This document shows, piece by piece, positions 7,575 through 17,997 of a stretch of DNA of 58,304 nt. The position numbers and the translations under genes are program-made. Source of the DNA: Thermoleophilia bacterium (GTDB lineage: Bacteria > Actinomycetota > Thermoleophilia > Gaiellales > Gaiellaceae); assembly GCA_009694305.1 (NCBI GenBank), contig SHVL01000010.1:1-58304 (forward strand), in the 5' to 3' direction. The notes below the pieces were generated by a model. The model did not search any database. It had not been told where the DNA came from and worked only from the letters and a program-made list of their open reading frames with translations. Every line of letters begins with the position of its first letter. The stretch's first letter is position 1.

Positions 7575-8585
7575 TCAACCTCTCGTTGTGCCGGACAGGT
7601 TCGTGGAGCGTGACGACTCTACCACGCGTTCCGGAAGGGCCACGGCCAAACGGCCGACGATATCGTGGCCTACCCCGCGGGCAGCCAGCCTGACAGCGTT
7701 CTCGATCGCATATCGTGAGCTCGATCCGTGCGCGATCACGACGAGACCACGAAGCCCCAGAAGATAGCCGCCTCCCGTCGTCTCGGGATCGAGCCGAGAC
7801 CGGAGGCGCGTCACCGCCGGACCGATCAGAAGACCGCCGACCTTCCCTCGAGTCGTCTCCGTGATCTCCCCTCGGAGGGCGCTGAGCAGGCTGTGAACCG
7901 TGCCTTCGAGCGTCTTGAGGGCCACGTTGCCGGTGAAGCCGTCACATACGATGACATCCGTCTCGCCGGAGAGCAGCGCGTTTCCCTCCATGTTCCCCTC
8001 GAAGCGAAGCGAGCTGGCCGAGAGCAGTGCGTGCGCGTCCAGGGTCAGCTGATTCCCCTTCTCCGGCTCCTCCCCGATAGACAGAAGGCTGACCCGGGGC
8101 CGCTCGATACCGAGAACTTCCTCGGCGAAGATCGATCCCATGAAGCCGAACTGCAGCACATGCTCGGGCTTCGCATCCGCCGTCGCCCCGGCGTCGATGA
8201 GCACACACGGCCCGTGATCGCTCGGGATCACGACGGCGATGCCGGGACGGAACACGCTTTCGAGCCGACGGATGTGAAGCAGGCTCGCCGCGAGCACGGC
8301 CCCGGTGTTGCCCGCCGAGACGACCGCGTCGGCATTCCCGTCACCGACGGCACGGACGGCACGGACGAGTGACGAGTCCGGCTTGCCGCGCACAGCGTCG
8401 GCCGGCTTGTCGTCCATCTCGACCATTCCATGCGTAACGACATGGTCGAGGCCGCAGGTGTCGAGACCGGCGGGGCCGTAGATAACCGGCTGCACCTCGG
8501 ACGTCTCGGCAGCCAGAGCACCGGCCACCCTCTCTACCGGATCACGGTCGCCCCCGAGGGCGTCCACGGCAATCCGGACGCGCAT
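7575..8585 (-). CDS. plsX: Phosphate acyltransferase PlsX
   Basis: A 336-aa enzyme that converts acyl-ACP plus phosphate to acyl-phosphate, the activated donor for membrane phospholipid synthesis. Family features include the N-terminal AVDALGGD, SAGNTGAVLAASL near 90, and GFTGNVALKTLEG near 230. The frame stays open upstream, but ATG 8585 gives the canonical MRVRIAVDALGGD start. It lies 5 bp downstream of rpmF and directly before acpP. FakA/FakB in the same gene run make the same intermediate from exogenous fatty acids. Confidence 0.96.
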   Translation of the reverse strand: MRVRIAVDALGGDRDPVERVAGALAAETSEVQPVIYGPAGLDTCGLDHVVTHGMVEMDDKPADAVRGKPDSSLVRAVRAVGDGNADAVVSAGNTGAVLAASLLHIRRLESVFRPGIAVVIPSDHGPCVLIDAGATADAKPEHVLQFGFMGSIFAEEVLGIERPRVSLLSIGEEPEKGNQLTLDAHALLSASSLRFEGNMEGNALLSGETDVIVCDGFTGNVALKTLEGTVHSLLSALRGEITETTRGKVGGLLIGPAVTRLRSRLDPETTGGGYLLGLRGLVVIAHGSSSRYAIENAVRLAARGVGHDIVGRLAVALPERVVESSRSTNLSGTTRG

Positions 8586-8590
8586 CCGAC

Positions 8591-8779
8591 CTACGGTGCC
8601 GGGGTTCCGAGCGGCTGAATCTCGCGCCCCCGGTACGTCTTGCACGTCGGGCACGCGTGGTGAGCCCGTGTCGGCGCACCACAATTCGAGCAGACGTTGA
8701 CGCTCGGCATGGCAATGCCGTGCTGGGCGCGACGCTTGTCGCGGCGGGCCTTGGAGGTCTTTCGCTTGGGGACTGCCAT
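8591..8779 (-). CDS. rpmF: 50S ribosomal protein L32
   Basis: A 62-aa large-subunit protein beginning MAVPKRKTSKARRDKRR. Two CxxC pairs (residues 30/33 and 43/46) form a zinc ribbon. ATG 8779 is chosen because it starts the family exactly; the longer open frame upstream is not coding. The rpmF-plsX order is widely conserved. Confidence 0.97.
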   Translation of the reverse strand: MAVPKRKTSKARRDKRRAQHGIAMPSVNVCSNCGAPTRAHHACPTCKTYRGREIQPLGTPAP

Positions 8780-8862
8780 GGGCGGGTGCAGAGTGTACCG
8801 GAACCCGCCCGGCAGGGCTCCGGTTGGGAGAGATACCGACCTGCACACCGGCGGGGCAAGGC

Positions 8863-11407: not shown

Positions 11408-11818
11408 TCAGAAGACGTTGGCCCCGGGCGCCTCGACTGCCAGCCCCGCCGCAGCGGCGGCAGCCGCGAGCCTCCGGTCGTACACCAGCATGATGTCGGG
11501 AGCAACTGCGATCGCGGTCGCGAGATGGATCGCGCCGAGCGGGCGAAGGCTCTCGGAGGCGATCCCGGCGGCGACCCGTGCTAGTGCGACGTCGGTGTCC
11601 ACGAGTACGACTCCGTCGAGCACGTGCGCGAGATCGTCGGCCTCGGTCTCCGCAACGAGGCCGGCGACGCGAAGGGCACGGGTCACCTCGGCAATCGACA
11701 CGACACTCGTGACAACGTCGGCGCCCCCGGGAATCGCTGCCACGAGAGCACGGCTCTCCGGTTCGCGAACGATCAGCTTCAACAGCGCGGACGCGTCGGC
11801 GTAGACGACGCTAGAAAC
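11408..11818 (-). pseudogene. VapC-like PIN-domain toxin, probably inactivated
   Basis: The reading frame encodes a PIN-domain RNase-like protein of about 135 aa: VVYADASALLKL (first catalytic Asp), SIAEVTRAL (Glu) and LVYDRRLAAAA (last Asp). The usual LDAIHLATAL block reads LGAIHLATAI, so the third acidic residue is Gly. No ATG, GTG or TTG occurs in frame between an ATG/GTG far upstream (12094, inside and before the antitoxin) and the first catalytic motif; codons at the expected start are GTT (11818), GTC and GTC. Loss of start plus loss of an active-site Asp suggests decay, although a non-standard start coupled to the antitoxin stop is possible. It overlaps the antitoxin 3' end. Confidence 0.7.
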
Positions 11819-12068
11819 GGTCTTCCCGCCCTTCCGCGACGATCTCGGACGTGGAGCGATCGAGAGGCCACTCGAGGGATGGCTCGCGGGGCTCGAACGG
11901 CCGCCCCGGTGTCGCGCGGCCTTCTGCGATGAGCCGATCGATACCCCGCCCGGTGTACGGGGCGATGACCGCGACGGGTTTGCCGTCGCGGGTGACCTCG
12001 ATGCGCTCGCCGCTCTCCACCCTGCGGAGGACGACGGTGAGTGCGTCGCGGAGTTCGCGGATTCCCAT
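11811..12068 (-). CDS. Phd/YefM-type antitoxin (VapB-like)
   Basis: An 85-aa prevent-host-death family antitoxin: MGIRELRDALTVVLRRVESGERIEVTRDGKPVAVIAP is the DNA-binding domain, followed by a flexible acidic tail that would wrap the toxin. ATG 12068 is preferred; GTG 12080 is in frame but lies inside the 18-bp palindrome just upstream. In this family the antitoxin binds a palindrome over its own promoter. The adjacent PIN toxin appears degenerate, so this antitoxin may persist as a regulator or as protection against related toxins. Confidence 0.88.
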   Translation of the reverse strand: MGIRELRDALTVVLRRVESGERIEVTRDGKPVAVIAPYTGRGIDRLIAEGRATPGRPFEPREPSLEWPLDRSTSEIVAEGREDRF

Positions 12069-12072
12069 TCTG

Positions 12073-12090
12073 GTAGCCACCGGTGGCTAC
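12073..12090. promoter_or_regulatory. 18-bp perfect palindrome, candidate antitoxin operator
   Basis: The sequence GTAGCCACCGGTGGCTAC is a perfect palindrome ending 4 bp before the antitoxin ATG at 12068. Toxin-antitoxin operons of this type autoregulate through such sites. It also sits in the 64-bp gap downstream of recG, so binding would act at the junction of the two units. Confidence 0.65.
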
Positions 12091-12132: not shown

Positions 12133-14241
12133 TCAGGAATCGCCGATGTGCTCGGAATCCCCCAGCAGGCGATCGACTGCGGTCGCAAGCTCACCCTCGT
12201 CCTGGAGCGCCCGCGCGACGTCTCGCGCCCGCTCGAGCAGGCCCGTGTCCTGGCGCAGACGGGTGAAGTGGAGGTCAGAGAGGCCCGCCTGCCTCGCGCC
12301 GAGCAGCTGGCCTTCGCCGCGGATCTCGAGGTCGCGTTCGGCGAGCTCGAAGCCGTCGCTCGTCTGCACCATCGCCTCGAGCCGATCGTGGGCGACGTCC
12401 GTGAGCTCCTCCTTCGGCCCCGAGACAAGGAGGCAGTACGACTGCTCCGCCCCACGCCCCACGCGGCCGCGCAGCTGGTGGAGCTGGGCGAGGCCGAAGC
12501 GGTCGGCCTCCTGCACGATCATGATCGTCGCGTTCGGCACGTCAACGCCGACCTCGATCACCGTCGTCGCGACCAGCACGTCGATCTCACCTGACTTGAA
12601 GTCGGCCATGATCGCGCGCCGCTCCGACGGCTTGCGCCGGCCATGCAGGCAGCCGACACGGAAGTCCTTCAGCTCGGCTCGGCGCAGCCGCTCGGCCTCA
12701 TCCTCTGCCGCACGCGCGACGGTCACCTCCGATGCCTCGATCAGCGGACAGACGACGTACGCTTGCCGGCCGTCCCGAAGATGCCGCGTCAGCCGCTCGT
12801 AGGCCTCGGAGCTACGGTCGTCGGTGACCCACGCGGTCACGATCGGCTTGCGGTTTGCGGGAGGAAAGGAGACCTCGGAGACCGAGAGGTCGCCGTAGAC
12901 CGTGAGCGCGAGCGTCCGGGGGATTGGCGTCGCTGTCATGTGGAGCACGTGCGGCGCCCGGCCTTCGGCGAGTGCCGAGCGCTGCTCGACGCCGAAGCGG
13001 TGCTGCTCGTCGACGACCGCGACCGCAAGGTCGCGGAAGCCCACCTCCTTCTGGATCAGGGCGTGGGTGCCGACGGCGATCTGCACGTCGCCCGATGAGA
13101 TCAGCTGCCGGACGTTCGCGTGCTCCTTCGCCGTGAGTGCGCTCGTGAGCAGGGCGACGCGCACGCCGAGTTCGGCACAGATCGCCTCGATCGTGAAGAA
13201 GTGCTGCTCGGCGAGCACCTCGGTGGGCGCCATCAGAGCTCCTTGCCGGCCCGCCTCGACGGCGCGCAGGAGCGTGGCAAGCGCGACGACCGTCTTGCCG
13301 GAGCCGACGTCACCCTGGAGCAGCCGCTGCATCGGTGTCGTCCGCGCGAGGTCGCCGTCGATCTCGGCGATCGCCTGCTCCTGTGCGTCTGTGAGCGTGA
13401 ACGGGAGCACCTCGCGGTAGCGCCGCAGGAGGCCACCGGCGGGAGGCAGCGCCTCGGCAACGAGCAGCTCCCGCTCGGCGGTGCGACGGGCGAGCGCGAG
13501 CTGCAGGACGAGGAGCTCGTCGAAGGCGAGACGCCGGCGGCCGACCTCCGCCTCCTCGGGCGAACGGGGCCGATGCAAGGCGACGAGCGCATCGGCACGG
13601 AGCGGCATCCGCTCGGCGGTTACAAGCGACGCCGGCAACGCATCACCCTCGGCCCGCACGAACTCGAGCGCCGCACCCACGAGCGCGCGCAGCTGCTTCT
13701 GGGCGAGCGCCTCGCTCGCCGGGTACACGGGCGCGTAGTCGGCGGTCTCCGTGGCCTCGCCGAGGTCATAGCTCGCCACCTGGAACCCGTAGCGGCTCGG
13801 CTTTCCGCGCAGGCGCACGCGCGTACCCGGGACGAGTTGCGCCTCGAGCCACGGCTGGTTGAACCACGTCGCTTTGATCTCACCGGTGTCGTCGGCCACC
13901 CGTGCTGTGAGGATGCGTAGCCGTCCGCGGCCGCGGCGCGACGAGGTGCCGAGCACGACTCCCTCGATCACCGCCTCCTCCTCGCCGAAGAGATCGCGGA
14001 TCGCCCTCTCGTCGATCGGCCGCTCGTAGCGGCGAGGCCGGTGCCCGAGCAGGTCACCGACGGTACGGAGGCCGAGCTTGGCCAGGCGGCCGCGCACCGC
14101 GGGGCCGACCTTCGGCAACGTCTCGACCCCGGCCTCGAACACCTCGGGCCGAGGGGCGCTACGAGGACGGGGCCAGGCCGTCGGCGGGTCGGCACCGGCG
14201 AAGCCGACCGGAAGCAGGATCGGTATGAGTGCGTCTGGCAC
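12133..14241 (-). CDS. recG: ATP-dependent DNA helicase RecG
   Basis: A superfamily 2 helicase that reverses stalled forks and resolves branched DNA. The N-terminal wedge/OB domain (LPKVGPAVRGRLAKLGLRTVGDLL) precedes motif I GDVGSGKT near 310, motif II DEQH near 410, the SAT-like TATPIPRT, and motif VI QLRGRVGRG near 600. A GTG at 14262 would add 7 residues, but GTG 14241 is preferred because a good -10 (TATACT) ends 8 nt before it, implying leaderless or near-leaderless mRNA; this gives 702 aa. It is downstream of the histidine-kinase fragment. Confidence 0.95.
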   Translation of the reverse strand: MPDALIPILLPVGFAGADPPTAWPRPRSAPRPEVFEAGVETLPKVGPAVRGRLAKLGLRTVGDLLGHRPRRYERPIDERAIRDLFGEEEAVIEGVVLGTSSRRGRGRLRILTARVADDTGEIKATWFNQPWLEAQLVPGTRVRLRGKPSRYGFQVASYDLGEATETADYAPVYPASEALAQKQLRALVGAALEFVRAEGDALPASLVTAERMPLRADALVALHRPRSPEEAEVGRRRLAFDELLVLQLALARRTAERELLVAEALPPAGGLLRRYREVLPFTLTDAQEQAIAEIDGDLARTTPMQRLLQGDVGSGKTVVALATLLRAVEAGRQGALMAPTEVLAEQHFFTIEAICAELGVRVALLTSALTAKEHANVRQLISSGDVQIAVGTHALIQKEVGFRDLAVAVVDEQHRFGVEQRSALAEGRAPHVLHMTATPIPRTLALTVYGDLSVSEVSFPPANRKPIVTAWVTDDRSSEAYERLTRHLRDGRQAYVVCPLIEASEVTVARAAEDEAERLRRAELKDFRVGCLHGRRKPSERRAIMADFKSGEIDVLVATTVIEVGVDVPNATIMIVQEADRFGLAQLHQLRGRVGRGAEQSYCLLVSGPKEELTDVAHDRLEAMVQTSDGFELAERDLEIRGEGQLLGARQAGLSDLHFTRLRQDTGLLERARDVARALQDEGELATAVDRLLGDSEHIGDS

Positions 14242-14249
14242 CTGCAGCG

Positions 14250-14278
14250 AGTATAGGACCACGACCGGCGTGGGTCGA
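14250..14278 (-). promoter_or_regulatory. Candidate recG promoter
   Basis: On the minus strand a -35-like TCGACC (14278-14273), 17-bp spacer and -10 TATACT (14255-14250) stand 8 nt before GTG 14241. This would give recG its own promoter with almost no leader. Four of six -35 bases and five of six -10 bases match the consensus. Confidence 0.5.
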
Positions 14279-14290
14279 GCAGCCTCTCTC

Positions 14291-14306
14291 AGCCTGGATC
14301 CAGGCT
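14291..14306. promoter_or_regulatory. 16-bp perfect palindrome between kinase fragment and recG
   Basis: AGCCTGGATCCAGGCT is a perfect palindrome at the end of the kinase fragment and 13 bp upstream of the recG -35. It could be an operator for recG or a short end-of-transcript hairpin. No known motif is recognised. Confidence 0.35.
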
Positions 14307-14773
14307 CAGCCTGCTGGGACGCAGACGACGACCTCGCGGCCGCCGCCCTGCGCGTCGAGGAGCTCGATCGTGCCGCCGTCCACCTCGACGAGCCTCCGGG
14401 CGATCGAGAGCCCGAGGCCCGACCCGCCTGCTCCTGATTCGCTGCGCCAGAACCTGTCGAAGGCGCGCTCCTTCTGCTCGGCGGTCATTCCGGGGCCCTC
14501 GCCGGCGACATGGAGTTCGACGATCCCACCCGCTGCTCGGAGCACGGAGACCGTGACAACCGGGCCTTCCGGTGCGTGCCGTAGGCCATTCGAGACGAGA
14601 TTGTCGATCACCTGGACTGCCCGATCGCTACCGACCCGCGCGTTCACGGGCACCGGGGCGTCGAGGCGTAACCGCACCTCGCCCGCCGTCGCGCGCCACG
14701 CGCCAACGCGCGCGACTGCCACTCCTGCGAGGTCAACGACCCGCGCAGGCGCGACACCTCCTCGGACACGCAC
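14306..14773 (-). CDS. Truncated histidine-kinase ATPase domain (HATPase_c)
   Basis: From GTG 14773 a 155-aa protein consists only of a GHKL ATPase domain with a short N-terminal piece typical of the region after the dimerisation helices. Visible boxes: N-box DNLVSNGLRHAP (57-68), G1 GEGPGM (91-96, where the usual DxGPG Asp is Glu), F-box FDRFWRS (105-111), G2 GSGLGLSI (117-124). There is no phospho-acceptor His box, HAMP or sensor region; upstream sequence is the fakB gene. It is either a remnant of a sensor kinase or a stand-alone ATPase working with the response regulator two genes upstream. It starts 44 bp after fakB; the frame is open further upstream but overlaps fakB. Confidence 0.7.
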   Translation of the reverse strand: MRVRGGVAPARVVDLAGVAVARVGAWRATAGEVRLRLDAPVPVNARVGSDRAVQVIDNLVSNGLRHAPEGPVVTVSVLRAAGGIVELHVAGEGPGMTAEQKERAFDRFWRSESGAGGSGLGLSIARRLVEVDGGTIELLDAQGGGREVVVCVPAG

Positions 14774-14817
14774 GTCCCCGTACCGGGGCCCGACGACGGA
14801 GACAACGACAGAGACGA

Positions 14818-15684
14818 CTAGTCGTCCTGGAACCAGAAGAACCCGACTGAGCCGGGGCCTGCGTGGGTGCCGACGACTGCGCCAAGGTTCTCCACCAGCT
14901 CGATCTCGGCCAGGGGCCTCGACTCGAGCGCGAGCGCGGAGACGTCCTCCACCCACTCCGGGGCGTCGGCGTGCGCGATCGCAACCCTGAGCCCGGGGCG
15001 GTCTTCGGTTGCCTCCTCGAAGAGGCGACGGAACTCGGCGAGCGCCTTCTGGCGGCCACGGACCCGGCCGACCGGGACGACGACGCCGCTCTCGACAGAC
15101 AGGATCGGCTTCACACTCAGCAGGGTGCCGGCGAGCGCCTGCGCCTTGCCGATGCGCCCCCCCCTCTGCAAATACTCGAGCGTGCCAACGGTGAAGACGA
15201 CGCCGTTGTCGCGTTTGAAACGGTCGATCAGCTCCTCGATCTCGGCATCACTCGTACCCCTCGCAAGCCGCCGCTCGATCGCGAGCGCAAGCATCGCAAC
15301 CGCGAGCGACGCGGTCTCGGAGTCGATCAGCCGCACCCTGTCGGCCCCGAAGATGCCCGCAGCCTGCACCGCGGAACCGTAGGTGCCCGAGAGCTCCCGG
15401 GACAGATGAAGCGAGTAGATGCGGTCGTAGCGCGCGAGGTCCTCGTAGGCGCGCAGGAACTCACCGGGCTTGGGCTGCGCCGTTGTCGGCAGCGCCGGGG
15501 CGCTCCTCAGGCGCTCGTAGAAGTCGTGCCCCGAGATCCCGACGTGGTCGAGGATGTCCTCGCTGCCAAAGAGGACGTGGAGGGGGACGACCCGGATGTT
15601 GTCGAAGCGCTCACGGGCCTTCGCCTCCGGAAAATCGGAGGTCGAGTCGAGGACGATCGCGGTATTCTCGGAGGTGAGGTTCAC
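14818..15684 (-). CDS. fakB: DegV family fatty-acid-binding protein (FakB)
   Basis: A 288-aa DegV protein. TAIVLDSTSDFP at the N-terminus, SRELSGTYGSAV near 92, LIDSETASLAVAMLAL near 118 and LEYLQRGGRI near 165 are the family's fatty-acid-binding and interface segments. FakB presents exogenous fatty acids to the kinase FakA, which makes acyl-phosphate. GTG 15684 overlaps the stop of the response-regulator gene (GTGA). The longer open frame upstream is a shadow inside that gene. It shares an operon with fakA, with plsX further downstream. Confidence 0.9.
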   Translation of the reverse strand: MNLTSENTAIVLDSTSDFPEAKARERFDNIRVVPLHVLFGSEDILDHVGISGHDFYERLRSAPALPTTAQPKPGEFLRAYEDLARYDRIYSLHLSRELSGTYGSAVQAAGIFGADRVRLIDSETASLAVAMLALAIERRLARGTSDAEIEELIDRFKRDNGVVFTVGTLEYLQRGGRIGKAQALAGTLLSVKPILSVESGVVVPVGRVRGRQKALAEFRRLFEEATEDRPGLRVAIAHADAPEWVEDVSALALESRPLAEIELVENLGAVVGTHAGPGSVGFFWFQDD

Positions 15685-16058
15685 GGGGTGCCTGCTGACC
15701 GTATCGCGTCCACGATCTCGGCCGTCGAACAGCCCTTCTCGAGAAGGGCCGATACACCGGCGGCGAGCACCCGAGTGCGCTCCTCGGGCGTCGCCTCGGC
15801 TGTCAGGCAGATGACGGCGACACCCGGGGCGATCGCATGGACGGCAGCGGCAGCCTCGTCTCCCTGGAGCCCCGGCAGGCGATAGTCCATCACGACGACA
15901 TCGGGAGCGAACTCGGCAACGGCAGCGGCGACCTCGCTCCCGTCGGCCACCTCGCCGACGACCTCGATCCCGTCGCGGCCATGCAGGAGCAACACGAGCG
16001 TCGAGCGGTACACGTCGTTGTCGTCGACGAGCAGGACGCGCAGAGGAAGCGGTGTCAC
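15681..16058 (-). CDS. Stand-alone receiver-domain response regulator
   Basis: A 125-aa CheY-like receiver with all phosphorylation residues: Asp12/Asp13, phospho-acceptor Asp58 (VVMDYRLPG), Thr86 (CLTAEA) and Lys108 (LLEKG). There is no output domain. Its GTG start overlaps the fakA stop and its stop overlaps the fakB start, so it is translationally locked between the two halves of the fatty acid kinase. A kinase ATPase fragment follows fakB. A control role in fatty acid uptake is inference from this arrangement. Confidence 0.9.
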   Translation of the reverse strand: MTPLPLRVLLVDDNDVYRSTLVLLLHGRDGIEVVGEVADGSEVAAAVAEFAPDVVVMDYRLPGLQGDEAAAAVHAIAPGVAVICLTAEATPEERTRVLAAGVSALLEKGCSTAEIVDAIRSAGTP

Positions 16059-17614
16059 GCGAACACGAGCAAGGCGTAGTGGGGCTGGCCGCCGTCGAGC
16101 ACCTCGAGCTCCACCCGCGGGAACGCGTGCGCAAACCGCCTGCAGAGCTCGTCGAGCCGTGGCCCGTCAACACCCGTGATCGCGGTGAAAGTGTCCGCCC
16201 CGTCGGCAAGAACGCCCCTTGCTACCGTCAACACGACCTCGTCAAAGTCAGAGCCACACACGAGAACGCGTCCGTCGGCACGCCCGAGCCACTCGCCTGC
16301 TCGCACCTCGACGCCGTCGATGATCGTCGTCTCCACAGCCGTCGCCACGTCGCCCGTCCGGAGGCCGTCGAGCGCAGCGGCCATTGCCTCCATGTTCTCT
16401 TCGGCCCGGTCCCCGTGGGAATACGCCTCGTTGACCGCGACGAGGCCCGCCTGCAACGAGTCCGTTTCGACGACGCGAACCTTCCTGGACGTGAACTCGG
16501 TTGCCTGCAGGGCTGCGCCGACGGCGTTCGGGTCGTTCGGCAGGACGACCACCTCGGGAGCGCGAGCTCTCTCTATCGCAGCCAGGATCTCCTGCACGGA
16601 CGGGCTGCCCGTGAGACCGCCCTCGATCACGATCACCTCCCCGAACTTTCTTCCAAACAGCCGCCGGTTGCCGGCACCGGGCGCAACCGCGACGACGGCC
16701 GTCTGCAGGTCGGTGAGCCTCTCGCGGATCTGCTCGTCCATGTCCGCGACGGCGACGCTCGACACGATGCCACGAGACCGCGCACACTCGATGGCGCGTT
16801 CTGCGTCGTCGGTGTGGACGTGGACACGAAGCAGCGAGGGGCCGCCGACGACGTGCAGCGAGTCGCCGATCTGCCCCAGCTCCTCCGCGAGTGCCTCCCG
16901 GTCGAGGGCGCTCCCCTCAACGACGAAGTTCGTGCAGAACTGGAAGGTCGAGAACTCGTGCTCGATCTCGGGAAACCCGTCCTCGTCCACGGGTGCACTC
17001 CCGGGCACGGGGATGCCCGCAACCGAGAAGTAAATGCCGCGCAGGATCTCGACGAGGCCGACGCCGCCCGCATCGACCACACCCGCATCACGGAGCTTCG
17101 GCAACTGGTTCTGCGTTTCGGCAACGGCGACTTCACCGCGTTCGACGACGAAGGCGAGCAGTTGCGATTTGTCGAGCCCTCCGGCCTCGGGCAACTCCGC
17201 TGCCGTCGCCATCGCCTCCATCACGGTCAGCATCGTCCCGTGCACCGGATGATCGATTGCGCTCATGGCCTCGTCGGAGGCAGAGCGGAGCGCGTCGCGG
17301 ATCGTCACCGCTTCGACCCCGGCCTGTTTGCCGAGCACCCGGGCGAGGCCCCGGACGATCTGACTCAGGATCACGCCCGAGTTTCCGAGCGCGCCCCTCA
17401 GAGCTGCATCCTCGAGCTCCTTTGCCACGGCCGCGTGCCCCGTCGCCAGCGACCTCTCCAGCTCATCGACGATGAACTGGACGGTGAGCGTCATGTTGGT
17501 TCCCGTGTCACCGTCCGGAACCGGGTAGACGTTGAGACGGTTGATGCGCGCGCGGTGCGCCTCGAGGTTCCGGAGCGCGTCACGCGACACCCTCCGGGCG
17601 ACATCCATCTCCAT
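16055..17614 (-). CDS. fakA: Fatty acid kinase FakA (DAK2/DhaL domain protein)
   Basis: A 519-aa protein with an N-terminal DhaL (DAK2) kinase domain, NVYPVPDGDTGTNM at 28-41 and GNSGVILSQIVRG near 77 for Mg-ATP binding, and a second HGTMLT segment. A FakB-binding middle/C-terminal domain follows (DAGGVGLVEILRG near 177; VVVLPNDPNAVGAA near 345). It phosphorylates fatty acids held by FakB to give acyl-phosphate. ATG 17614 gives a normal N-terminus. It follows rpmB, a common order in Gram-positive bacteria, and overlaps the response regulator by 4 bp. Confidence 0.92.
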   Translation of the reverse strand: MEMDVARRVSRDALRNLEAHRARINRLNVYPVPDGDTGTNMTLTVQFIVDELERSLATGHAAVAKELEDAALRGALGNSGVILSQIVRGLARVLGKQAGVEAVTIRDALRSASDEAMSAIDHPVHGTMLTVMEAMATAAELPEAGGLDKSQLLAFVVERGEVAVAETQNQLPKLRDAGVVDAGGVGLVEILRGIYFSVAGIPVPGSAPVDEDGFPEIEHEFSTFQFCTNFVVEGSALDREALAEELGQIGDSLHVVGGPSLLRVHVHTDDAERAIECARSRGIVSSVAVADMDEQIRERLTDLQTAVVAVAPGAGNRRLFGRKFGEVIVIEGGLTGSPSVQEILAAIERARAPEVVVLPNDPNAVGAALQATEFTSRKVRVVETDSLQAGLVAVNEAYSHGDRAEENMEAMAAALDGLRTGDVATAVETTIIDGVEVRAGEWLGRADGRVLVCGSDFDEVVLTVARGVLADGADTFTAITGVDGPRLDELCRRFAHAFPRVELEVLDGGQPHYALLVFA

Positions 17615-17805: not shown

Positions 17806-17997
17806 CTAGATCGCCTTGGTGACCTTGCCGGCCTTGAGGCAGCGGGTGCAGACATACGCCCGCGTCGCCTTGCCGTTCAGCATCATGCGCACCTTCTGCA
17901 GGTTCGGGTTGAAGCGGCGTTTGGTGGCGACCATCGAGTGGCTCCGGTTGTTACCGAAGCCGGGCTTCTTCCCGCAGAGTGAGCAGATCTTCGACAT
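17806..17997 (-). CDS. rpmB: 50S ribosomal protein L28
   Basis: A 63-aa ribosomal protein starting [21 protein letters not shown], with CxxC at residues 5/8 and 50/53, the zinc-binding (C+) form. ATG 17997 gives the exact family start. It precedes fakA, as in many Gram-positive genomes. Confidence 0.97.

Follow-up and report, generated by a model that had tools for sequence, protein, structure and literature searches.

A single-domain NarL-type receiver gene between fakA and fakB in a Thermoleophilia family, with copies retained in genomes without fatty acid kinase

Introduction

The fatty acid kinase (Fak) of Staphylococcus aureus, formed by FakA and FakB (PMC9136124; PDB 7w7h and others), is the closest described counterpart of the enzyme considered here, and the Mg-ATP-binding residues of FakA and the Cys-His-His set of its middle domain have been reported (PMC9136124). 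A pair with the same FakA architecture and catalytic residues, and with the same FakB family and arginine, is encoded in a stretch of 58,304 nucleotides from a Thermoleophilia bacterium of the family Gaiellaceae (assembly GCA_009694305.1, contig SHVL01000010.1, positions 1 to 58,304, forward strand), referred to as the window. The likeness extends to PlsX, which is encoded nearby, and to PlsY, which is found in most relatives. The window differs in that a gene for a receiver-only response regulator stands between fakA and fakB; none was present in the other fakA-fakB operons sampled.

Three further systems are relevant for comparison. In S. aureus, fatty acid kinase is likewise linked to two-component signalling, in that Fak affects SaeRS indirectly via free fatty acids, with no phosphorylation of SaeR or SaeS (PMC5539427); the direction there is the opposite one, Fak acting on SaeRS. 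EpsW, a single-domain response regulator of Myxococcus xanthus, acts on the phosphoglycosyl transferase EpsZ by contact (PMC12802240). The window receiver resembles EpsW in being a receiver without an output domain and in its proposed post-translational contact with a biosynthetic enzyme, but EpsW is known to work downstream of the Dif system and its target has been demonstrated; the window receiver has no known counterpart of either and sits in a cluster of lipid, ribosome and repair genes. The NarL-family regulators (VraR, NarL, DesR, DevR) supply the nearest solved receiver domains, although their helix-turn-helix output domain is missing here, and no family member read continues beyond the receiver.

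An earlier note on this DNA had proposed that fakA, the receiver, fakB and a following histidine-kinase ATPase (HATPase) domain form a possible two-component control of fatty acid kinase, a kind of switch that it did not know to be described. No paper describing a receiver gene with fakA/fakB was found in the literature searched. The analysis below suggests a stand-alone receiver for which Fak would be one target at most.

Conservation and origin of the receiver

The receiver matched Response_reg (PF00072) over residues 8-120 of 125 with 77 bits (cut-off 30), and the gene stops directly after this domain, in the window as in every relative read. The phosphorylation residues, described as intact in the earlier note, were all found in the window copy between fakA and fakB (D12, D13, D58, T86 and K108). 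D13, D58 and K108 were invariant in 66 family orthologs (56 from genomes with Fak, 10 from genomes without) and also in a 25-row alignment, where position 86 was T or S. With all active-site residues present, a pseudo-receiver reading was rejected. AlphaFold2 models of two family members other than the window copy gave a complete receiver fold of alternating beta strands and alpha helices, with the predicted local distance difference test (pLDDT) mostly >90 over the receiver, and the closest solved structures by sequence were the receivers of VraR, NarL and DesR. The protein is a genuine single-domain response regulator of the NarL type without a DNA-binding domain, and it is probably phosphorylatable.

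The distribution was determined in a family set of 103 genomes, in which family orthologs scored 123 to 202 bits and other receivers at most 119.5 bits. An ortholog (≥123 bits) was present in 87 genomes, the gene being kept across about 30 genera, and in 69 genomes fakA, the receiver and fakB (degV) were contiguous on one strand; the neighbourhood survey thus found the receiver at this place in relatives and not in the window alone. On this family-wide synteny, the reading of the receiver as a chance neighbour was rejected.

Outside the family the picture was different. In a class-wide search all matches fell in the lower-scoring group (best 119.7 bits), and among the matches listed none was at a fakA locus. 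Elsewhere in the order and class, families had the gene order fakA-degV-recG or fakA-recG, without the receiver. The same gene orders were seen, again without the receiver, in 28 loci of the phylum outside the family and in 80 named fakA loci (Actinobacteria, Firmicutes, Chloroflexi), the only other signalling genes between fakA and degV there being one Chloroflexota island. In the rest of the order, class and phylum sampled, fakA-fakB-recG is the ancestral order. Because the receiver is family-wide yet absent at this place there, it was inserted a single time, in the common ancestor of the window's family. In the Chloroflexota assembly (locus L034, 7594-12253), fakA and degV are separated by genes for a histidine kinase, a double-receiver protein and a receiver-GAF-HD protein, which make up an independent signalling island at this position.

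Retention of the receiver in genomes without fakA and fakB

A regulator dedicated to Fak would occur only together with fakA/fakB, and this was not so. The receiver occurred without any fakA or degV in ten genomes from seven genera (G013, G014, G103, G188, G195, G198, G203, G262, G263, G275). In the six fully resolved loci (L178, L199, L201, L202, L203, L204) rpmB, the receiver and recG lay on one contig, with fakA and degV gone; in four (L177, L197, L198, L200) rpmB adjoined the receiver, and the right side was cut off or rearranged. On a tree of RibH, RpmB and RecG the Fak-less genomes occupied six separate places (g33+g34, g29, G203 in g31, g35, g9, g8), so that fakA and fakB were lost independently about six times while the receiver stayed. 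Support for several forks of this tree was <95, and the exact number of losses, although greater than one, is uncertain.

The active site of the receiver was intact in the Fak-less genomes. In closely related pairs the ratio of non-synonymous to synonymous substitution rates (dN/dS) of the receiver was 0.09-0.17 without Fak vs. 0.20-0.29 with Fak; the single distant Fak-less pair gave 0.40, with synonymous sites near saturation.

The explanation considered rather probable is that the protein is a stand-alone NarL-type receiver, served by an unlinked kinase, which acts by protein contact in an acyl-phosphate/phospholipid gene cluster and for which Fak is at most one target. The receiver entered an old rpmB-fakA-fakB-recG cluster, in which plsX also lies, once in the family ancestor, and has been kept since. 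D58 would receive its phosphoryl group from a histidine kinase whose gene lies elsewhere, and no linked intact kinase was conserved at the family loci read. Because the receiver has no output domain, its output would be contact with another protein, for which EpsW acting on EpsZ is a precedent; because it stays, under selection, where both FakA and FakB are lost, that partner would not be FakA/FakB alone. The likely target would be some other member of the acyl-phosphate/phospholipid pathway or, in a relay, a second kinase; in genomes that have Fak, it may be targeted as well.

Fatty acid kinase and its possible contact with the receiver

FakA matched TIGR03599 (YloV) with 433 bits (cut-off 396) together with three Pfam domains, and FakB matched DegV with 245 bits (cut-off 27) and TIGR00762 with 263 bits (cut-off 100), placing them in the YloV/FakA and DegV/FakB families. 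The NCBIfam equivalogs FakA_VfrB (NF038248; 284 bits vs. a cut-off of 975) and FakB1 (NF038249; 144 bits vs. a cut-off of 350) were not reached by the window proteins, and the genes were therefore filed only under the wider YloV/FakA and DegV families. Counterparts of S. aureus FakA N32, D38, D40, T41, N82, D185, C240, H282 and H284 were present in the window, and the Mg/ATP residues and the Cys-His-His set were invariant in 57 full-length relatives. FakB R177 (in RGGRIG; counterpart of FakB1 R173) was present in the window and invariant in 61 relatives. Because the catalytic residues of FakA and the arginine of FakB are kept, the fatty acid kinase of the window looks functional. Residues 67-73 of the window FakB read TTAQPKP vs. 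TTSQPTP in most relatives; the lysine was unique among 61 relatives, and may touch fatty-acid binding.

Divergence was uneven along the locus. Identity between the window and the near relative G001 was 50% for FakA, 62% for the receiver, 86% for FakB and 91% for RecG. The window FakA branch was very long (1.1 vs. a median of 0.2) with its catalytic residues intact, the receiver branch was longish, and FakB and RecG were unremarkable in identity. FakA of G003/G004 was likewise divergent. Co-replacement of fakA and the receiver by transfer in the window's lineage was considered; faster evolution would also explain the divergence. In genus g11 (G016, G148, G153; loci L179, L205, L207, L231) the FakA adjoining the receiver consisted of the DAK2 domain only, and a separate DAK2-DegV fusion was encoded elsewhere in the genome (602 residues in G016).

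Several observations weigh against the preferred explanation of a stand-alone receiver. An insertion exactly between two co-functioning genes fits a Fak-linked role, and so do correlated rates: in a mirror-tree analysis of 27 genomes, with housekeeping genes as the control, the receiver correlated with FakA (partial r = 0.45) and FakB (0.50) beyond the housekeeping genes; these values fell to 0.23 and 0.33 when each was controlled for the other, and are not decisive. In the window fakB and recG diverge more slowly than fakA and the receiver do. Many of the genomes were assembled from metagenomes and are incomplete, with G013 and G014 at only about 70% completeness.

A rival reading is a dedicated Fak switch, in which the receiver, once phosphorylated, would bind FakA, FakB or both and raise or lower acyl-phosphate output, copies in Fak-less genomes being relics or re-targeted. 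Such a switch agrees with the embedding of the receiver between near-overlapping fakA and fakB genes in 69 genomes, with g11, where the receiver still adjoins the DAK2-only FakA though fakB has left, with the correlated rates and with the intact catalytic residues of Fak. It is nevertheless judged unlikely, given about six independent losses of both genes with the receiver, its active site and purifying selection retained, two genomes (G134 and G226, g31) in which fakA-fakB is kept and the receiver lost, and the absence of the receiver from all other fakA-fakB operons sampled.

Contact was also modelled with AlphaFold2 as fused chains, for which natural in-frame fakA-receiver neighbours were read through the stop codon, giving linkers of 34 residues (G015) and 27 residues (G148). 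The FakA-linker-receiver chain (G015) had a predicted template modelling score (pTM) of 0.62 and the DAK2-linker-receiver chain (G148) a pTM of 0.58, with disordered linkers. The domains were confident and their relative placement was not; such models lend the switch no confident docking, but they are weak tests and, without an inter-domain error matrix, give no evidence either way. Of the two-component control of Fak that the earlier note had proposed, the conserved, probably phosphorylation-competent receiver stands, and its character as a dedicated switch is weakened by a receiver that outlives Fak about six times.

Quite unlikely, too, is the receiver as a passenger, a non-essential gene riding in a stable operon. 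It has no known partner, and G134 and G226 have lost it and still have the operon, but the gene is conserved across about 30 genera and under purifying selection, its active site is invariant, and it has repeatedly survived the deletion of both flanking genes.

Phosphoryl source and the downstream kinase fragment

Of eight Fak-less genomes tested, seven had PlsX and six had PlsY, so that acyl-phosphate is presumably still made without Fak. In the window's own genome (G000) PlsX was detected and PlsY gave no match; same-genus relatives have PlsY, which is possibly missing from the assembly.

Acetyl-phosphate serves other receivers as a phosphoryl donor, and in principle the fatty acyl-phosphate of FakAB and PlsX could serve this one, which would then report pathway flux. 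Both acyl-phosphate-making enzymes are encoded in its cluster, PlsX is retained in nearly all tested genomes that have the receiver without Fak, and no linked kinase is conserved. Against this, the one published test, with S. aureus SaeR (FakA, FakB2 and oleate) gave no phosphorylation (PMC5539427), the acyl chain is buried in FakB, and no sequence feature here points that way. A sensor of this kind is improbable, and its fuller form, in which fatty acyl-phosphate made by FakAB or PlsX takes the place of a kinase as phosphoryl donor and the receiver feeds back by contact on phospholipid synthesis, slightly more so. Under the preferred explanation, the phosphoryl group would come from an unlinked histidine kinase.

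The open reading frame (ORF) downstream of fakB, which the earlier note had included in the system, matched HATPase_c with 79 bits (cut-off 26) and nothing else; HAMP, HisKA and the phospho-acceptor histidine were absent from it. At the same place in G006, of the same genus as the window, a complete OmpR-type regulator and a kinase with HAMP, HisKA and HATPase_c domains lie between fakB and recG. The window ORF begins just before the catalytic domain of this kinase and was 65% identical to it. The same OmpR-type regulator and an HATPase match lie between fakB and recG in G246. The fragment still has its N box and GSGLGL motif; at the G1 box (DxGxG) the window reads AGEGPG, G006 RDEGAG and a remnant in G153 LDHGPS, the window aspartate being replaced by glycine. 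Among the family loci read, just those of G000, G006, G246 and G153 had such sequence, and the G153 remnant was even shorter. Because an intact version stands at the same place in G006, and HisKA and the G1-box aspartate are lost in the window, the fragment is what remains, after 5' truncation, of an unrelated two-component system of the OmpR/HisKA type. As the decayed end of that system it would have no part in the mechanism, and its inclusion in a fakA-receiver-fakB-kinase system does not hold.

Of the family loci read, only L182 (G006) and L210 (G246) have OmpR-type two-component genes between degV and recG, with remnants in the window and L207. In G006 they are preceded by ApbE-like and ferric-reductase-like reading frames, the latter assigned by sequence reading only.

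That the HATPase ORF is the kinase of the receiver, or its catalytic half, and that the four genes form one signalling unit is barely conceivable: it starts 44 bp behind fakB, stays open over 155 codons and keeps two ATP-binding-domain motifs (N box, GSGLGL), but it is the last third of a kinase that in G006 is intact beside its own OmpR-type regulator, it has lost the phospho-acceptor histidine and the G1-box aspartate, it occurs in only four family loci read, and a HisKA kinase of the OmpR-partner type mismatches a NarL-type receiver.

Gene layout of the locus

The gene order, strand, GTGA overlaps (fakA/receiver and again receiver/fakB) and the gap of exactly 44 bp from the fakB stop to the HATPase start were all as the earlier note had given them, by coordinates and domain calls (Table 1). 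A longer mechanical version of the HATPase ORF begins at 14956. In relatives the spacing was -4 to +66 for fakA-receiver and often -4 for receiver-fakB, so exact 4-bp overlaps are not general across the family. The fixed ratio of products that had been drawn from the overlaps finds them present in the window, but with spacing that varies in the family a strictly fixed ratio is unsupported; the receiver is probably co-transcribed with fakA and fakB.

The window cluster runs from rib genes and rpmB through recG, rsmD, coaD and plsX to rnc and smc. Between recG and rsmD, at 11408-12080, lies a VapBC-like pair, made up of a gene for a PIN-domain protein (40.6 bits, cut-off 23.6) and an adjoining weak Phd/YefM-like antitoxin match (below the cut-off).

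Table 1. Features of the receiver locus and its flanking genes in the window.
Feature	Position	Strand	Details
fakA	16055..17614	-	519 aa, ATG start; DAK2 + FakA-like_M + FakA-like_C
Receiver-only response regulator, NarL-type, without output domain	15681..16058	-	125 aa, GTG start
fakB-like DegV-family fatty-acid-binding protein	14818..15684	-	288 aa, GTG start
Truncated sensor histidine kinase remnant, HATPase only	14306..14773	-	155 aa, GTG start; probably non-functional part
recG, downstream anchor in the old gene order fakA-fakB-recG	12133..14262	-	
rpmB (ribosomal protein L28), upstream anchor	17806..17997	-	
plsX (acyl-ACP:phosphate transacylase family), other acyl-phosphate source	7575..8846	-	same gene cluster

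Discussion

The locus is a case in which a decayed kinase fragment beside a receiver can mimic a complete signalling unit. The repeated loss of Fak around a kept receiver amounts to a natural experiment, in which genomes with the receiver and Fak, with the receiver only and with Fak only are directly comparable. Known links between signalling and lipids run via transcription or, for Fak and SaeRS, via free fatty acids. Regulation of the acyl-phosphate branch of phospholipid synthesis through contact with a phosphorelay receiver, if it occurs, would add a new meeting point of two-component signalling and lipid metabolism.

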